NCBI GenBank assembly: GCA_025454895.1
Contig: JALONO010000036.1
Location: 1-36,565 of the forward strand
Direction: 5' to 3'
Length of the DNA stretch: 36,565 bases
DNA from: Bernardetiaceae bacterium
Lineage (GTDB): Bacteria > Bacteroidota > Bacteroidia > Cytophagales > Thermoflexibacteraceae
In this document: positions 10,699-18,461 of the stretch, piece after piece
Layout: the number at the start of each line of letters is the position of its first letter
Position numbering within the stretch: position 1 is the first letter of the stretch
Translations under genes and position numbers: made by a program
The notes under the pieces: generated by a model
Database searches by the model: none
What the model was told of the DNA's origin: nothing
Seen by the model: only the letters and a program-made list of their open reading frames with translations

Positions 10699-11670
10699 AT
10701 GCAAATCCACTACGGTTTAGCCCAGTTTCCCCGGCTGGCCCACTCCGTGGTTACCGAGGGCATTTTTGACGGCGTGCACGTGGGCCACCAACGCATTTTA
10801 CAGCGGCTGGTGCAGTTGACCGCCCAAGTGCGGGCGCAAACCGGGGCCGGGGCCGCCAGCGTCGTGCTCACCTTTTGGCCGCACCCCCGGCTGGTGCTGC
10901 AACCCCAGGCCCCCCCGGTGCGCCTGCTGAGCACCCTCCCCGAAAAAATCGAGCAAATGGCCGCCTTTGGCATCGACCAATTGGTGGTTATCCCGTTCGA
11001 CGAGGCGTTTGCCCGCCAAACCCCGGCCGAGTACGTAGTCAACGTGCTGCAAAAAGTCCATACCCGCCACCTGGTGATCGGCTACGACCACCGCTTTGGC
11101 CACCAACGGGCGGGCGATTTTGCCTATTTGCAAGCCCACCAGGCCCAGTTTGGGCTGTGGGTGGAGGAAATCCCCCGGCAGGACGTGGACCAGGTAGGCG
11201 TGAGCAGTACCAAAATCCGCAACGCCCTGGCCGAGGGCAACATGGTCGTGGCCAACCAGTACCTGGGCCGCCCCTACACGCTGGCGGGCGTGGTTACCCC
11301 CGGCGACCAAATTGGCCGCACCTTGGGCTACCCCACCGCCAACCTGGCCCTGGACGAGCCGCTCAAGCTCGTGCCCGCCGACGGGATTTACGCCGTGCGG
11401 GTGCGCCTAGCCGGGCAAATCCACGACGGCATGTTGTACATTGGCAACCGCAGCACCCTGGGCCAGGGTCTGCAAAAAGTAATTGAAGTGAATATTTTTG
11501 ATTTTGAACGCCAAATTTACGGCCAAACCTTACAGGTGGAATTTTGGCAACGGCTCCGGGGGGAAATCCAGTTTGCGGGCCTGGAAATGCTCAAACAACA
11601 GATGGCGCAAGACAAAGCCCAGGCTCAGATTGTCTTGGCGCAATTGGCCCCAGCGACCAATTTGGGGTAA
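10699..11670 (+). CDS. ribF: Bifunctional riboflavin kinase / FAD synthetase
   Basis: The 323-residue cytoplasmic enzyme makes FMN from riboflavin and then FAD from FMN. The N-terminal nucleotidyltransferase domain has GIFDGVHVGH at residues 21-30 and GYDHRFGHQRAGD near 130. A VSSTKIRNAL motif (the S-S-T-x-I-R box) links to the C-terminal riboflavin kinase domain, which has GRTLGYPTANL near residue 207 and an N-R-S-T segment near 253. The ATG at 10699 is chosen over a TTG at 10693 because it fits the family length. It is convergent with the small Cys-rich gene at 11733. No other rib genes are nearby. Confidence 0.97.
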   Translation: MQIHYGLAQFPRLAHSVVTEGIFDGVHVGHQRILQRLVQLTAQVRAQTGAGAASVVLTFWPHPRLVLQPQAPPVRLLSTLPEKIEQMAAFGIDQLVVIPFDEAFARQTPAEYVVNVLQKVHTRHLVIGYDHRFGHQRAGDFAYLQAHQAQFGLWVEEIPRQDVDQVGVSSTKIRNALAEGNMVVANQYLGRPYTLAGVVTPGDQIGRTLGYPTANLALDEPLKLVPADGIYAVRVRLAGQIHDGMLYIGNRSTLGQGLQKVIEVNIFDFERQIYGQTLQVEFWQRLRGEIQFAGLEMLKQQMAQDKAQAQIVLAQLAPATNLG

Positions 11671-11732: not shown

Positions 11733-12041
11733 TTAGGCCCGGCCAGCCATCGGTTTGCGTACCCGGCGATAAACGAACCAAACCCCGTAGGCCAACCCCA
11801 AAATCAACAGGGTGCTATCCGCTTGATTGATAGGTACTTCCGCGAGTGGGTTGTTGGTGCAACGGGTATCGTTATCGTCGCAGGGGGGGCACGGGTCGTT
11901 AGTGCCGCCAGTCCGCACGCAGCCGCCGTTGGCACTGCCATCCACACAGCCGCACTCGCTTTGAGCAAAAACGGGTGTTGGCAACCCCATCAACCAACAT
12001 CCCAAACTAAAGCCGCCCAAGCGCAGTAGTAACTTTTTCAT
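11733..12041 (-). CDS. Small Cys-rich exported protein with PID-CTERM-like C-terminal sorting tail
   Basis: This 102-residue protein has an N-terminal signal peptide (residues 1-26, ending TPVFA-QS). A short Cys-rich central part follows, with eight cysteines (CGC, C, CPPC, C) plus Asn and Asp. The C-terminus reads PINQADSTLLILGLAYG followed by a hydrophobic stretch and RRVRK. This tripartite end (Pro-Ile-Asp/Asn motif, transmembrane helix, basic tail) matches PID-CTERM-type putative sorting signals of Bacteroidota, so the protein may be processed and attached at the cell surface. No sorting enzyme is encoded in the window. The gene is alone, and no clear promoter box is seen upstream. The exported nature is firm; the sorting assignment is from motif resemblance. 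Confidence 0.75.
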   Translation of the reverse strand: MKKLLLRLGGFSLGCWLMGLPTPVFAQSECGCVDGSANGGCVRTGGTNDPCPPCDDNDTRCTNNPLAEVPINQADSTLLILGLAYGVWFVYRRVRKPMAGRA

Positions 12042-12487: not shown

Positions 12488-14200
12488 ATGAAAAAGTCAT
12501 TCATCCTGGTTTGCCTGCTGTGGTTGGGCCTGTTGCTGGCCCACTGCACCAGCACCCGCCCCGAAAACAAAACCAACGAGCAAGCCCCGACCGAAGAAGT
12601 AACGACCAGCCCCAAGCCTGCCCCCGTAACCGATCAGATGAAGATGGAGGACGGAGCCGCCCCGGCCACTTACGAAATGCGCAAGGAGTCGCAGGTAATG
12701 AAACGGCTCGATGCCAATCAAGCCCCCCAAGGCTTGCCCCAGCCCGAAATGATGCCTACCGACCAGGAGCCGCCCGCCCACAACACCGACGAGTATGGGA
12801 CCATCACCGAAAATACCTTTACCACGCCCCAGGTTAGCCCGTTGTCCACTTTTTCAATCGATGTGGACCATGCCTCGTACAGCAACGTGCGGCAGATGCT
12901 GCAAGCGGGCAGCCTGCCCTACCGCGATGCCGTGCGGATCGAGGAGTTTGTCAATTACTTCGACTACAACTACCCCAACCCCACGGGCGCGCACCCGTTC
13001 GGCATCCATTTGGAGGCGGCCCCCGCGCCCTGGAACCCCCAACACCAACTGGTAATGGTGGGCCTGCAAGGCAAAAAACTCGACTACGACCACCTGGCCC
13101 CTTGCAATTTGGTGTTTTTGGTAGATGTGTCGGGCTCAATGGAAGCTGCTAACAAACTGCCCTTACTCAGGTCGTCGTTGAAGCTGCTGGTAGGCAACCT
13201 CACCGAGCGCGACCGGATCAGCATTGTGGCCTACGCCGGGGCGGCGGGCCTGGTGCTGCCCGCCACCCCCGCCAACCGCCGCGACGAGATTTTTGCCGCC
13301 CTGGATCGGCTGAACGCCGGGGGCAGCACGGCGGGCGGCGAAGGTATTTTGCTGGCTTACCAAGTGGCCAAGCAAAACCTGATCGCCAATGGCAACAACC
13401 GCATCGTGCTCTGTACCGACGGCGATTTTAACGTGGGCGTATCGTCCACGTCCGAGCTGGTGCGCCTCGTGCAAGACAAACGCCAGGAAGGTATCTACCT
13501 CACCCTCTGCGGCTTTGGCATGGGCAACTACAAGGACCACCGCATGGAAGAACTGAGCCGCAACGGCGACGGCAACTATTATTACATCGACAACCTGAAC
13601 GAGGCCCGCAAAGTGTTTGTGAAAGAAATGCGCGCCACGCTGTTCACTATTGCCAAAGACGTGAAAATCCAGGTGGAGTTTAACCCGGCCCGGGTGCAAG
13701 CCTACCGCCTCATTGGCTACGAGAACCGCCTGCTCAAAAGCGAGGACTTCAACGACGACAAAAAAGATGCGGGCGAATTGGGGGCAGGCCACACCGTTAC
13801 GGCCTTGTACGAGATCATCCCCGTGGGCGTAAAATCGGACTGGGTAAAAACCGTGGACCCGCTGCGTTACCAGCCGTCCGGCCAAGCCACGCCCCAGCCC
13901 TCGGCCGACTGGCTCACGGTGAAATTCCGCTACAAAAAGCCCGGCGAAAGTACTAGCCAATTGCTGGCCCAAAGCCTCCAAGCCCACCACGCCAAAACCG
14001 AGGCCGCGTCAGAAAACTTCCGGTTTGCCGCCGCCGTGGCCGGGTTTGGGATGCTGCTGCGCGGGTCGGAGTTCAAGGGCCAGGCCAGCTACGAGCTGGT
14101 GAGCCAACTGGCCACCGGGGCCAAAGGCACCGACCCCGAGGGCTACCGCCGCGAGTTTATCCAAATGGTGGACAACTGGCGGCTGCTGGCGCGGAAGTAA
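12488..14200 (+). CDS. von Willebrand factor A domain lipoprotein (YfbK family)
   Basis: The 570-residue protein starts with a lipoprotein-type signal (hydrophobic residues 5-18, LLLAHC with Cys20; His at -1 is unusual). After a low-complexity Pro/Glu linker comes the vWA N-terminal domain (STFSIDVDHASYSNVRQML, about 120-180). The vWA domain follows, with an intact MIDAS motif DVSGSM near residue 213. The C-terminal DUF3520-type domain holds VKVQ-like and YRLIGYENRLL segments (near 400-420). Such proteins are probably anchored to a membrane and bind a partner through the metal site. The partner and the process are unknown. It stands alone between a divergent small gene and an M28 peptidase gene. 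Confidence 0.93.
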   Translation: MKKSFILVCLLWLGLLLAHCTSTRPENKTNEQAPTEEVTTSPKPAPVTDQMKMEDGAAPATYEMRKESQVMKRLDANQAPQGLPQPEMMPTDQEPPAHNTDEYGTITENTFTTPQVSPLSTFSIDVDHASYSNVRQMLQAGSLPYRDAVRIEEFVNYFDYNYPNPTGAHPFGIHLEAAPAPWNPQHQLVMVGLQGKKLDYDHLAPCNLVFLVDVSGSMEAANKLPLLRSSLKLLVGNLTERDRISIVAYAGAAGLVLPATPANRRDEIFAALDRLNAGGSTAGGEGILLAYQVAKQNLIANGNNRIVLCTDGDFNVGVSSTSELVRLVQDKRQEGIYLTLCGFGMGNYKDHRMEELSRNGDGNYYYIDNLNEARKVFVKEMRATLFTIAKDVKIQVEFNPARVQAYRLIGYENRLLKSEDFNDDKKDAGELGAGHTVTALYEIIPVGVKSDWVKTVDPLRYQPSGQATPQPSADWLTVKFRYKKPGESTSQLLAQSLQAHHAKTEAASENFRFAAAVAGFGMLLRGSEFKGQASYELVSQLATGAKGTDPEGYRREFIQMVDNWRLLARK

Positions 14201-16362: not shown

Positions 16363-17253
16363 GTGATTGTTACGCAACTGAGCGGGGGCATGGGCAACCA
16401 GATGTTCCAATACGCGGCCGCACGTGCTTTAGCCTTGCGCTGGCAGGCTCCCCTCAAATTAGATTTGACCGCCCTACTAGACCGCAAACCGGCCCCGGGC
16501 CTGGTGTTTCGGGACTACGACCTGGACATTTTCCACTTGGAAGTGGAGCGGGCCACCCCGGCCGAGGTACGCCTGGCCAAACGCGAGCCGGGCCTGGGGC
16601 TACGGGCCTGGTGCAAACTGACCCGGCAGGCCCCTACCCCACCGCCGGGTTTGTACGCAGAGCCGCATTTCCACTACGATGCCACGTTTGCCCACCACCG
16701 CCCGCCCGTTTACTTGCAGGGCTATTGGCAGTCGGCCCGGTATTTTCAGGAGATTGCCCCGCAGATCAAAGCCGATTTCGCGTTGCGGGAGCCGCTAGGC
16801 CCGGCGGCGGCTACGCTCGCGGCCCAGGTGCGGGCCGCCCCCGCGCCCGTGTGCGTAAACGTGCGCCGGGGCGACTTTTTGACCAATCCCACCCACGGTT
16901 TTGTGGGCCTGGCCTACTACCGCCAAGCGGTGGATCGGCTGGCCCAATTGGTGAGCGGGCCGCTGCAATGCTACCTGTTTTCCGACGAGCCGGAATGGTG
17001 CGCCCAGCACTTGGACCTGGCCCCCCACGCCTGCCAGGTGGTGGGGCACGAGTACGCCGGGCCTAAATTCCGGGATTATTTGGCCCTGATGATCCAGTGC
17101 CACCACTTTGTGATCCCCAACAGCACCTTTGCCTGGTGGGCCGCTTGGCTGTGCCCGCACCCGGCCAAAGTGGTGATTGCCCCGCAGCAATGGTTTGGCC
17201 AAAGTCCTCACAATACCCAAGACCTGCTGCCCAGCGAATGGCTCAAAATGTAA
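16363..17253 (+). CDS. Alpha-1,2-fucosyltransferase (GT11)
   Basis: The 296-residue glycosyltransferase would add fucose from GDP-fucose in alpha-1,2 linkage to a surface glycan. The N-terminal signature is QLSGGMGNQMFQYAAARALA (residues 5-24). The HxRRGD-type motif appears as VNVRRGDF near 167-174, and the C-terminal signature is IPNSTFAWWAAWL near 250-262. All are hallmarks of GT11. The start is a GTG at 16363, since homologues begin MIV-x-x-L-x-GG and no ATG lies nearby. There is no signal peptide, so it acts on the cytoplasmic face. A polysaccharide export permease gene follows on the same strand, which suggests a shared role in making O-antigen, capsule or S-layer glycan. No promoter box is clear. 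Confidence 0.93.
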   Translation: MIVTQLSGGMGNQMFQYAAARALALRWQAPLKLDLTALLDRKPAPGLVFRDYDLDIFHLEVERATPAEVRLAKREPGLGLRAWCKLTRQAPTPPPGLYAEPHFHYDATFAHHRPPVYLQGYWQSARYFQEIAPQIKADFALREPLGPAAATLAAQVRAAPAPVCVNVRRGDFLTNPTHGFVGLAYYRQAVDRLAQLVSGPLQCYLFSDEPEWCAQHLDLAPHACQVVGHEYAGPKFRDYLALMIQCHHFVIPNSTFAWWAAWLCPHPAKVVIAPQQWFGQSPHNTQDLLPSEWLKM

Positions 17254-17299
17254 AAGATGCTGTTAAGCGATGTATTTTACGCTGAGATACCCAGTTCCA

Positions 17300-17463
17300 G
17301 GGCACCGCGGTTAGCCACGCCCGGCGACCGCAGGGCGGTGAGGCACGAACCGGTATTTTGGCGGGGGCAATAGGCCGCCGCAAAGCTGGCTGGCTTGTTG
17401 CCCCCGCCAAAATACGGGAACAAGCGTGTACCCCGGAGGGTGCCGCGCCGCCGTAAGCTATGA
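17300..17463. repeat. GC-rich palindromic element, copy 1
   Basis: The element begins with AGCCACGCCCGGCGAC (17313-17328). It has an 18-bp perfect inverted repeat (arms at 17353-17370 and 17398-17415, core GGCGGGGGCAA) and ends GTGCCGCGCCGCCGTAAGC. Both flanks recur around a different palindrome at 29870-30042. The element fills the spacer in front of the export permease gene. An in-frame extension of that gene into it is not credible. Confidence 0.65.
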
Positions 17464-17591
17464 AAATTTTAGGGAACTGGCGCAAAAACCTAGCAGCCAC
17501 ATTCTATAACCCTACCTGCAAAAAAGCGGCATTTGGCACTATTTTTACAGCCCATAAAGGCGGCCGCTGGCCGTTTTTTGCCCCCTCCCTC

Positions 17592-18461
17592 ATGGAACAA
17601 CCCACCAACGACGAGCAGTGGACCGAGGTGATCAAACCTCACCAGCCTTGGTACGACCTGAAACTGCGCGAGTTATGGCGCTACCGCGACCTGGTACGCA
17701 TTTTTATCTGGCGCGATTTCGTGGCGGCTTACAAGCAAACCCTACTTGGCCCGTTTTGGCACGTGATCAACCCGGTTTTGAGCATCCTACTTTATTATAT
17801 TCTGTTTAGCCAGGTAGCCCAACTGTCCACCAACGGCACGCCGCCGTTTTTGTTCCAGTTTGGTAGTTTTATGTGCTGGACGTTTTTTGTGCGCTGCTTT
17901 AGCGTGGCCCAGAGCACCTTTTTGGGCAATTCGGGCATTTTCAGCAAAGTGTATTTCCCCCGTTTGGCGGTGCCGGTGTCGGGGGCCATTTCAGGGCTGC
18001 TGCAATTTGGCATTCTGTTCGCGGGCTACGCGGGCATTTGGCTGTACCAGTGGAATAAAGGCGCGCAAGTGGAAATTACCGGGGCGGGCGTGGCCTGGTT
18101 CTTCCCGCTCATGTTCATTATGACCATCATGGGCCTGGGCGCGGGCTTTGTGGTGGCGGCCCTCACCACCAAGTACCGCGATTTATCGCTGTTTGTGGGC
18201 TATGGCATCAGCCTGCTCATGTACGTATCGGCGGTGGTTTACCCGGCCTCCGAAATGGGGCGGCTCGCCCCCAAATACGAAGCCTGGTTTTGGTACAACC
18301 CCATCGTGCCGTTGATGGAGGGCCTCCGGTTCAGCATTTTGGGCACGCCCACCCTCCACCCCAGTTTGATCGGGTACAGCGCGGCCTTTGCCGTCGGGCT
18401 GTTTTTGCTGGGCCTGGTGATGTTCAACCGCACCGAACGCACGTTTATTGACACGGTGTAG
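17592..18461 (+). CDS. ABC-2 type polysaccharide export permease (Wzm/TagG-like)
   Basis: The 289-residue inner-membrane protein is the permease of a polysaccharide or polyol-phosphate export ABC transporter. The cytoplasmic N-terminus holds LRELWRYRDLVRIFIWRDF and YKQTLLGPFWHVINPVLS, diagnostic of the family. About six membrane helices follow (for example LSILLYYILFSQ, FGILFAGYAGIWLY and ISLLMYVSAVVYP). The ATG at 17592 fits family N-termini; the frame is open back to 17460 through the GC-rich element but that part has no homologous look. The matching ATPase (Wzt) normally lies next door and is absent here. The upstream GT11 gene supports a role in surface glycan export. Confidence 0.92.
   Translation: MEQPTNDEQWTEVIKPHQPWYDLKLRELWRYRDLVRIFIWRDFVAAYKQTLLGPFWHVINPVLSILLYYILFSQVAQLSTNGTPPFLFQFGSFMCWTFFVRCFSVAQSTFLGNSGIFSKVYFPRLAVPVSGAISGLLQFGILFAGYAGIWLYQWNKGAQVEITGAGVAWFFPLMFIMTIMGLGAGFVVAALTTKYRDLSLFVGYGISLLMYVSAVVYPASEMGRLAPKYEAWFWYNPIVPLMEGLRFSILGTPTLHPSLIGYSAAFAVGLFLLGLVMFNRTERTFIDTV

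Follow-up and report, generated by a model that had tools for sequence, protein, structure and literature searches.

The general scheme proposed for the sorting of proteins by a C-terminal tag comes from the PEP-CTERM/EpsH system (PMC1569441, as far as the accessible part of that paper goes). Flavobacterium johnsoniae strains deleted for xrtF or for the adjoining gene colonized sand less, made much less biofilm and formed no zorbs, and in the accessible part of that study the substrates of XrtF were left as future work (PMC10936215). Exosortase substrates in Bacteroidota seem little reported. A text search of the accessible literature did not return the terms PID-CTERM and exosortase X, and XrtX occurred there only in three papers that, judging by their titles, deal with other subjects. 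The kind of system described here is already known to curators, since NCBIfam names PID-CTERM proteins (NF046080), exosortase X (XrtX, NF046081) and an XrtX-associated membrane protein (NF046082).

The gene under study lies in a window of 36,565 nucleotides (the whole stretch of DNA that was analyzed), which belongs to a genome of 4.58 Mb in 389 contigs that is 95.6% complete. The open reading frame at 11733-12041 that an earlier note on this DNA had pointed out does exist; its strand, left unstated there, is the minus strand, with the ATG at 12041 and the stop codon at 11735-11733, and the plus-strand reading of the same interval contains two stops. Its product has the following parts:

11733-12041, minus strand: gene for a Cys-rich, putatively secreted protein of 102 residues that ends in a PIN tail (translation, Cys positions, codon score)
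11964-12041, minus strand: predicted signal peptide, residues 1-26 (MKK...VFA), which includes Cys15 (translation; cleavage site predicted by eye)
11835-11963, minus strand: mature Cys-rich body, residues 27-69, with Cys 30, 32, 41, 51, 54 and 61 (Cys positions)
11826-11834, minus strand: Pro70-Ile71-Asn72, the equivalent of Pro-Ile-Asp in PID-CTERM (alignment to PID tails, gap-free from Pro on)
11769-11813, minus strand: hydrophobic helix, residues 77-91, with Leu78, Gly82 and Gly86 in invariant PID/PIN columns (alignment)
11736-11768, minus strand: basic C-terminal end, residues 92-102, RRVRKPMAGRA (translation)

The translation thus holds every part that had been described from the letters, that is, an N-terminal signal peptide (read from the sequence), Pro-Ile-Asn, a hydrophobic helix and a basic end, but the eight cysteines said to occur in about 45 residues are in fact seven in total. 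Because Cys15 sits within the signal peptide, the mature part has six, within 32 residues. Given the predicted cleavage after Ala26, which was read by eye, the mature stretch up to Asn72 would comprise 46 residues. Cys15 was also considered as a lipoprotein cysteine and rejected, as the preceding Phe-Ser-Leu-Gly does not satisfy the lipobox rule and a better cleavage site lies downstream. The neighbours, named from their translations, are a ribF-like gene on the plus strand that ends at 11670 and is convergent, and a divergent gene for a VWA-type lipoprotein that starts at 12488. At 16390-18461 of the window, some 4 kb away from the gene under study, a fucosyltransferase-like gene is followed by one for a putative ABC-2 type polysaccharide export permease (by translation).

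The PID-CTERM HMM, which had been suggested as a check, spoke against the window protein: hmmscan with NF046080 (NCBIfam) gave no match, and a genome search with the same model gave 10.2 bits (E 5.9) against a cut-off of 26. The protein misses this model because PINQA stands where the family has PIDGG, keeping only Pro and Ile of the Pro-Ile-Asp-Gly-Gly core. The remainder of the tail is as in the family, with a helix showing G-x3-G spacing from the motif and then basic residues at the extreme C-terminus, and from the Pro on it aligns without gaps to PID tails from this genome and elsewhere, P, L, G and G being unchanged in all 12 tails of the alignment. To avoid circularity, the models for the shuffle tests were built only with tails from 30 loci that had been found with the NCBIfam model, and three shuffle schemes of 10,000 each were used. 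Against a model of 29 tails, one of them in the wrong frame, the window protein scored 8.9 bits, a value reached by 4, 1 and 1 of the 10,000 shuffles; against 28 clean tails it scored 9.5 bits, with 0, 1 and 6 shuffles as high, and when three N-type tails adjacent to xrtX were added to these 28 the score was 8.6 bits, with 3, 2 and 9 as high. The tail of the window protein is thus more like PID-CTERM than chance would allow, its score being equalled by only 0 to 9 of the 10,000 shuffles in any one scheme. Of 255 membrane-tail decoys, two outscored the window protein (38 to 56 bits, depending on the model), and these are probably true PID tails missed by the search pattern; in the same comparison one of seven rows listed as PIN is in fact a PVD tail. 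A PIN profile made from the window protein and four tails pointed to by the class search with that same protein found matches at E up to 0.1 in 217 of 395 genomes of the class, a result that leans towards the window protein because of what the profile holds, so that the shuffle tests are the stricter evidence.

Further proteins with such a tail and a sortase-like enzyme, for which the earlier note had advised a search, were both found in the genome, and the outcome that it held to be decisive against its idea, the lack of both, does not apply. Four PID-CTERM proteins score over the cut-off, all of them tiny, and by reading Pro, Gly, Thr or acidic residues abound in their bodies before the motif. 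With a broader PID/PIN profile that has these proteins among its members, the genome gave the four sisters and the window protein, besides two matches of low significance (E 0.07 and 0.5); the tail of the window protein was the sole one of N type to be found. Two exosortases exceed the Pfam cut-off, one of XrtX type on contig C215 and an XrtN on contig C203. The C215 enzyme scores 154.2 bits with the XrtX model against a cut-off of 170, with XrtF as the next-best model at 65.6, and its Cys83, Arg124 and His143 correspond to columns that are invariant in 28 of 28 other XrtX proteins, those readable from the 30 top-scoring loci. By reading, its gene adjoins an anmK-like gene, and the gene that follows it is weakly like that of the XrtX-associated membrane protein, with 26 bits against a cut-off of 75. 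No tail gene was seen beside this xrtX, and the window gene is unlinked to it, being located on contig C212. Alongside XrtX, the genome also encodes the XrtN of C203 and, next to it, a target with a VIT domain and a C-terminal tail of VPEP type.

Searches for orthologs of the window protein were negative throughout. In 395 genomes of the class none was convincing, the best non-self match having an E of 0.0018; five of the 29 non-self loci of this search are small tail proteins, three of N type (L023, L025, L034) and two of D type (L036, L040), while the other 24 look like chance matches. Among 20 further weak places from the class search and two family loci, a tail was present in two (L051, L061). 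No ortholog came from the 13 family genomes, where the two matches other than the protein itself were weak (E 0.06 and 0.18). None was found in 350 genomes of the order either, where the best non-self match (E 4.5e-4) has a stop inside; four of the six weak non-self rows were read (L019, L240, L242, L244), and L242 and L244 are tiny PID-CTERM proteins. Plain sequence searches with the window protein thus lead to tail proteins too. A collection of genome contigs gave 39 pattern matches with zero confirmed, and the search for syntenic relatives through the neighbouring ribF-like gene gave 10 loci, none of which exceeds 47% identity or represents a close relative. PDB sequences did not match the window protein, and a Pfam CAAD match, with 15.7 bits against a cut-off of 30.7, was rejected as a generic helix match.

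At the level of the family, tails and XrtX go together. Using a profile that includes the window protein and its four sisters, we found tails at E below 1e-8 in five of 13 genomes (G000, G396, G397, G403 and G405), and XrtX over 150 bits in exactly those five (Fisher p 0.0008, ignoring descent). In two further genomes, G395 and G398, the exosortase matches are weaker (86 and 102 bits) and tails are missing at that threshold; the remaining six, one of them only 62% complete, have neither. Going by gene positions, tail and xrtX are neighbours in G403 and G405 and not in the other three tail-bearing genomes. Over the 395 genomes of the class, the XrtX model matched 222 at E up to 1e-5 (101 over the cut-off) and the PID-CTERM model 170 at E up to 0.001 (159 over the cut-off); both were present in 165, the exosortase only in 57, the tail only in 5 and neither in 168, counts that ignore descent. 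With strong XrtX defined as E up to 1e-39, a line chosen after the scores were seen, 112 of 124 genomes carry a tail, and so do 53 of the 98 genomes with only weaker matches, because of which the tails cannot be called exclusive to strong XrtX.

Twelve class genomes have a strong XrtX and no PID-CTERM match, and in eight of these we saw a variant tail. Four are of N type, namely PVNGG (G037), PVNGG (G143), PINNG (G168, on another contig) and PLNNG (G234), and four of D type, PLDSN (G020), PADNG (G081), PVDGG (G111) and PLDNN (G314). None was seen in G122, G148, G153 and G340, of which G122 and G153 are 65% and 67% complete, while G148 and G340 have only about 0.5 and 1 kb of contig upstream of xrtX. 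The N-type tail gene lies directly beside xrtX in G037 (PVNGG, 7 bases), G143 (PVNGG, a 4-base overlap) and G010 (PINGA, 15 bases), as does the gene for a PLNGG tail in G006, and the order in G117, G178 and G234 is tiny PIN gene, Wzc-like gene, xrtX. Since N-type tails directly adjoin xrtX in other genomes, Asn is a natural variant of the motif. It is also a minority variant: among the 28 readable of the 30 top-scoring xrtX loci, a tail gene stands immediately upstream of xrtX at no fewer than 18, a count that misses known tails at two loci (L134, L153), and none of the 18 is of N type (14 PID, 3 PVD, 1 PLD); in G182 and G379 the N-type gene is away from xrtX.

The tail family also has recurrent neighbours. 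In 10 of 26 readable loci of tiny PID-CTERM genes (30 were fetched via NF046080 alone), a T9SS-like open reading frame stands directly upstream on the same strand, compared to 4 of 39 chance loci (p 0.012, with a control that used a looser place rule and a pattern written after such neighbours had been seen). All nine products tested, seven of these ten and two from the same genome as the window, pass the 23-bit cut-off of the T9SS type A model, with 24.9 to 54.5 bits. Two of the four PID genes of that genome adjoin a T9SS cargo gene (on C94 and C318), one following and one preceding it. This link concerns the family as a whole; it says nothing on the window gene, since no T9SS cargo gene was seen beside it. 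At nine loci, genes that read as Wzc-like chain-length kinases stand beside xrtX or the tail gene, a tie to polysaccharide export; the G117 product, the only copy tested, scores 158.4 with the polysaccharide biosynthesis tyrosine autokinase model, against a cut-off of 108.05. Six loci in different genomes share a gene order in which the tail gene is followed by xrtX, the gene for the XrtX-associated membrane protein and glyA (serine hydroxymethyltransferase, by reading). In 18 of the 26 tiny PID proteins a Cys pair comes right before the motif, and by reading it takes the form CWPPPC in 11 of these; such a pair may close a small disulphide loop where the enzyme would cut.

Our preferred reading, with a probability of about 0.7, is that the XrtX-type exosortase of this genome has the window protein among its cargos and that the tail is a PIN variant of the PID-CTERM tail. 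A matching enzyme, four sister proteins and an altered tag make the protein probably another surface-placed peptide. The earlier idea of a sorted cargo is well supported by the tail similarity, the sisters and the exosortase, while membership by the curated PID-CTERM model did not hold. Counting against this reading are the miss of the curated model, the scores of the genome's own XrtX and associated protein below their cut-offs, the lack of linkage to xrtX, the lack of an ortholog and the fact that this is the sole N-type tail in the genome. So do the 0 of 18 N-type tails at the top xrtX loci, the drop in score when N-type tails were added to the model, and the tails that occur without a strong XrtX (53 of 98 genomes with weaker matches, and 5 without an exosortase).

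A plain membrane-anchored periplasmic protein, whose helix would be a stop-transfer anchor never cut by an exosortase and whose likeness to PID-CTERM would be a relic or convergent, would suit several of these points, namely the score below the PID-CTERM cut-off without the DGG part, the unlinked gene, the sole N-type tail found in the genome and the absence of this type beside the top-scoring xrtX genes. We consider it unlikely, because the gap-free match of P, L, G and G beats nearly all shuffles, the size class and layout are those of the four sister cargos, and N-type tails do adjoin xrtX in other genomes. The other exosortase could also be proposed as the enzyme that acts on the protein, as XrtN is present (216.2 bits, cut-off 200). 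It has its own adjoining target (489.1 bits, cut-off 250), whose VPEP-type tail lacks the G-x3-G spacing, PID/PIN tails track XrtX, and the window protein is matched neither by the XrtN-target model (sorted_by_XrtN; the XrtN system is TIGR04476 and TIGR04477) nor by the PEP-CTERM models, so sorting by XrtN appears highly improbable, and the least probable of the readings that we weighed.

That the open reading frame is degraded or spurious and has no product is, in our opinion, very unlikely as well. It would fit the failure of every search to find an ortholog, and a codon score that, at +0.16 bits per codon, is far below the 0.55 to 0.93 of the 18 long genes compared. The same score is the best among the six frames and exceeds those of the genome's four other tail genes (-0.35 to 0.006), the G+C of 0.573 is coding-like when set against 0.43 to 0.49 in five nearby intergenic stretches, and a whole signal peptide and a whole tail fall within one open frame. 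G+C and codon score thus support a real gene, though the codon score is weak.

As a cargo of XrtX, the window protein would be exported by Sec and lose its signal peptide, and the C-terminal helix and basic residues would retain the chain in the inner membrane. XrtX, via its conserved Cys, Arg and His, would then cut near Pro-Ile-Asn, and the peptide of about 46 residues and six cysteines would be handed to a carrier, probably lipid- or polysaccharide-linked, for display at the cell surface. The six cysteines would probably pair in the oxidizing periplasm and give a compact, protease-resistant knob. A more general proposal, speculative and quite unlikely to hold as a whole, is that XrtX in Bacteroidota serves a dedicated class of very small exported peptides, in many of which P-[ILV]-[DN] is directly preceded by a pair of cysteines or a Cys-rich body. 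These would be neither enzymes nor adhesins but would supply the peptide portion of an anchor at the surface or of a link to the matrix, acting with the T9SS cargo of the directly upstream gene and a Wzc-controlled polysaccharide; the window protein would be a disulphide-rich, Asn-type member.

The unexpected part of these results is the surrounding family, in which tiny cargos encoded next to xrtX, to genes for T9SS cargo and to Wzc-like genes provide concrete candidate substrates that are directly testable. The curated PID-CTERM signal is too narrow, as it misses Asn in place of Asp and the loss of GG. As far as these searches go, the N-type variant backed by xrtX neighbours, the six-cysteine cargo body and the link between tiny cargos and T9SS genes are new, the last not being described in the accessible parts of two papers that mention both exosortases and T9SS.

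With PEP-CTERM/EpsH the system shares, as far as the accessible part of PMC1569441 describes it, a tripartite C-terminal tag, a membrane-embedded Cys protease and a link to polysaccharide genes. The motif and the enzyme subfamily are different. Many PEP-CTERM cargos are far larger. XrtF of F. johnsoniae is likewise a Bacteroidota exosortase with an adjoining associated protein (PMC10936215, accessible part), although the C215 enzyme appears to belong to another subfamily. Exosortase X is its best model, the catalytic-type Cys, Arg and His are kept and a gene like that of the associated protein adjoins, but both products score below their curated cut-offs and the tail gene was not seen alongside. 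The PID-CTERM proteins are built alike, running from a signal peptide through a short body, P-I-x and a helix to a basic end; they have equal spacing of P, L, G and G, a similar total size and four members in the same genome. The window protein differs from them by its PINQA in place of PIDGG, by a Val-Trp where its sisters have Lys-Lys or Lys-Arg, one residue past the second Gly, and by its Cys-rich body, whereas by reading none of the four sisters has a cysteine between signal peptide and motif.
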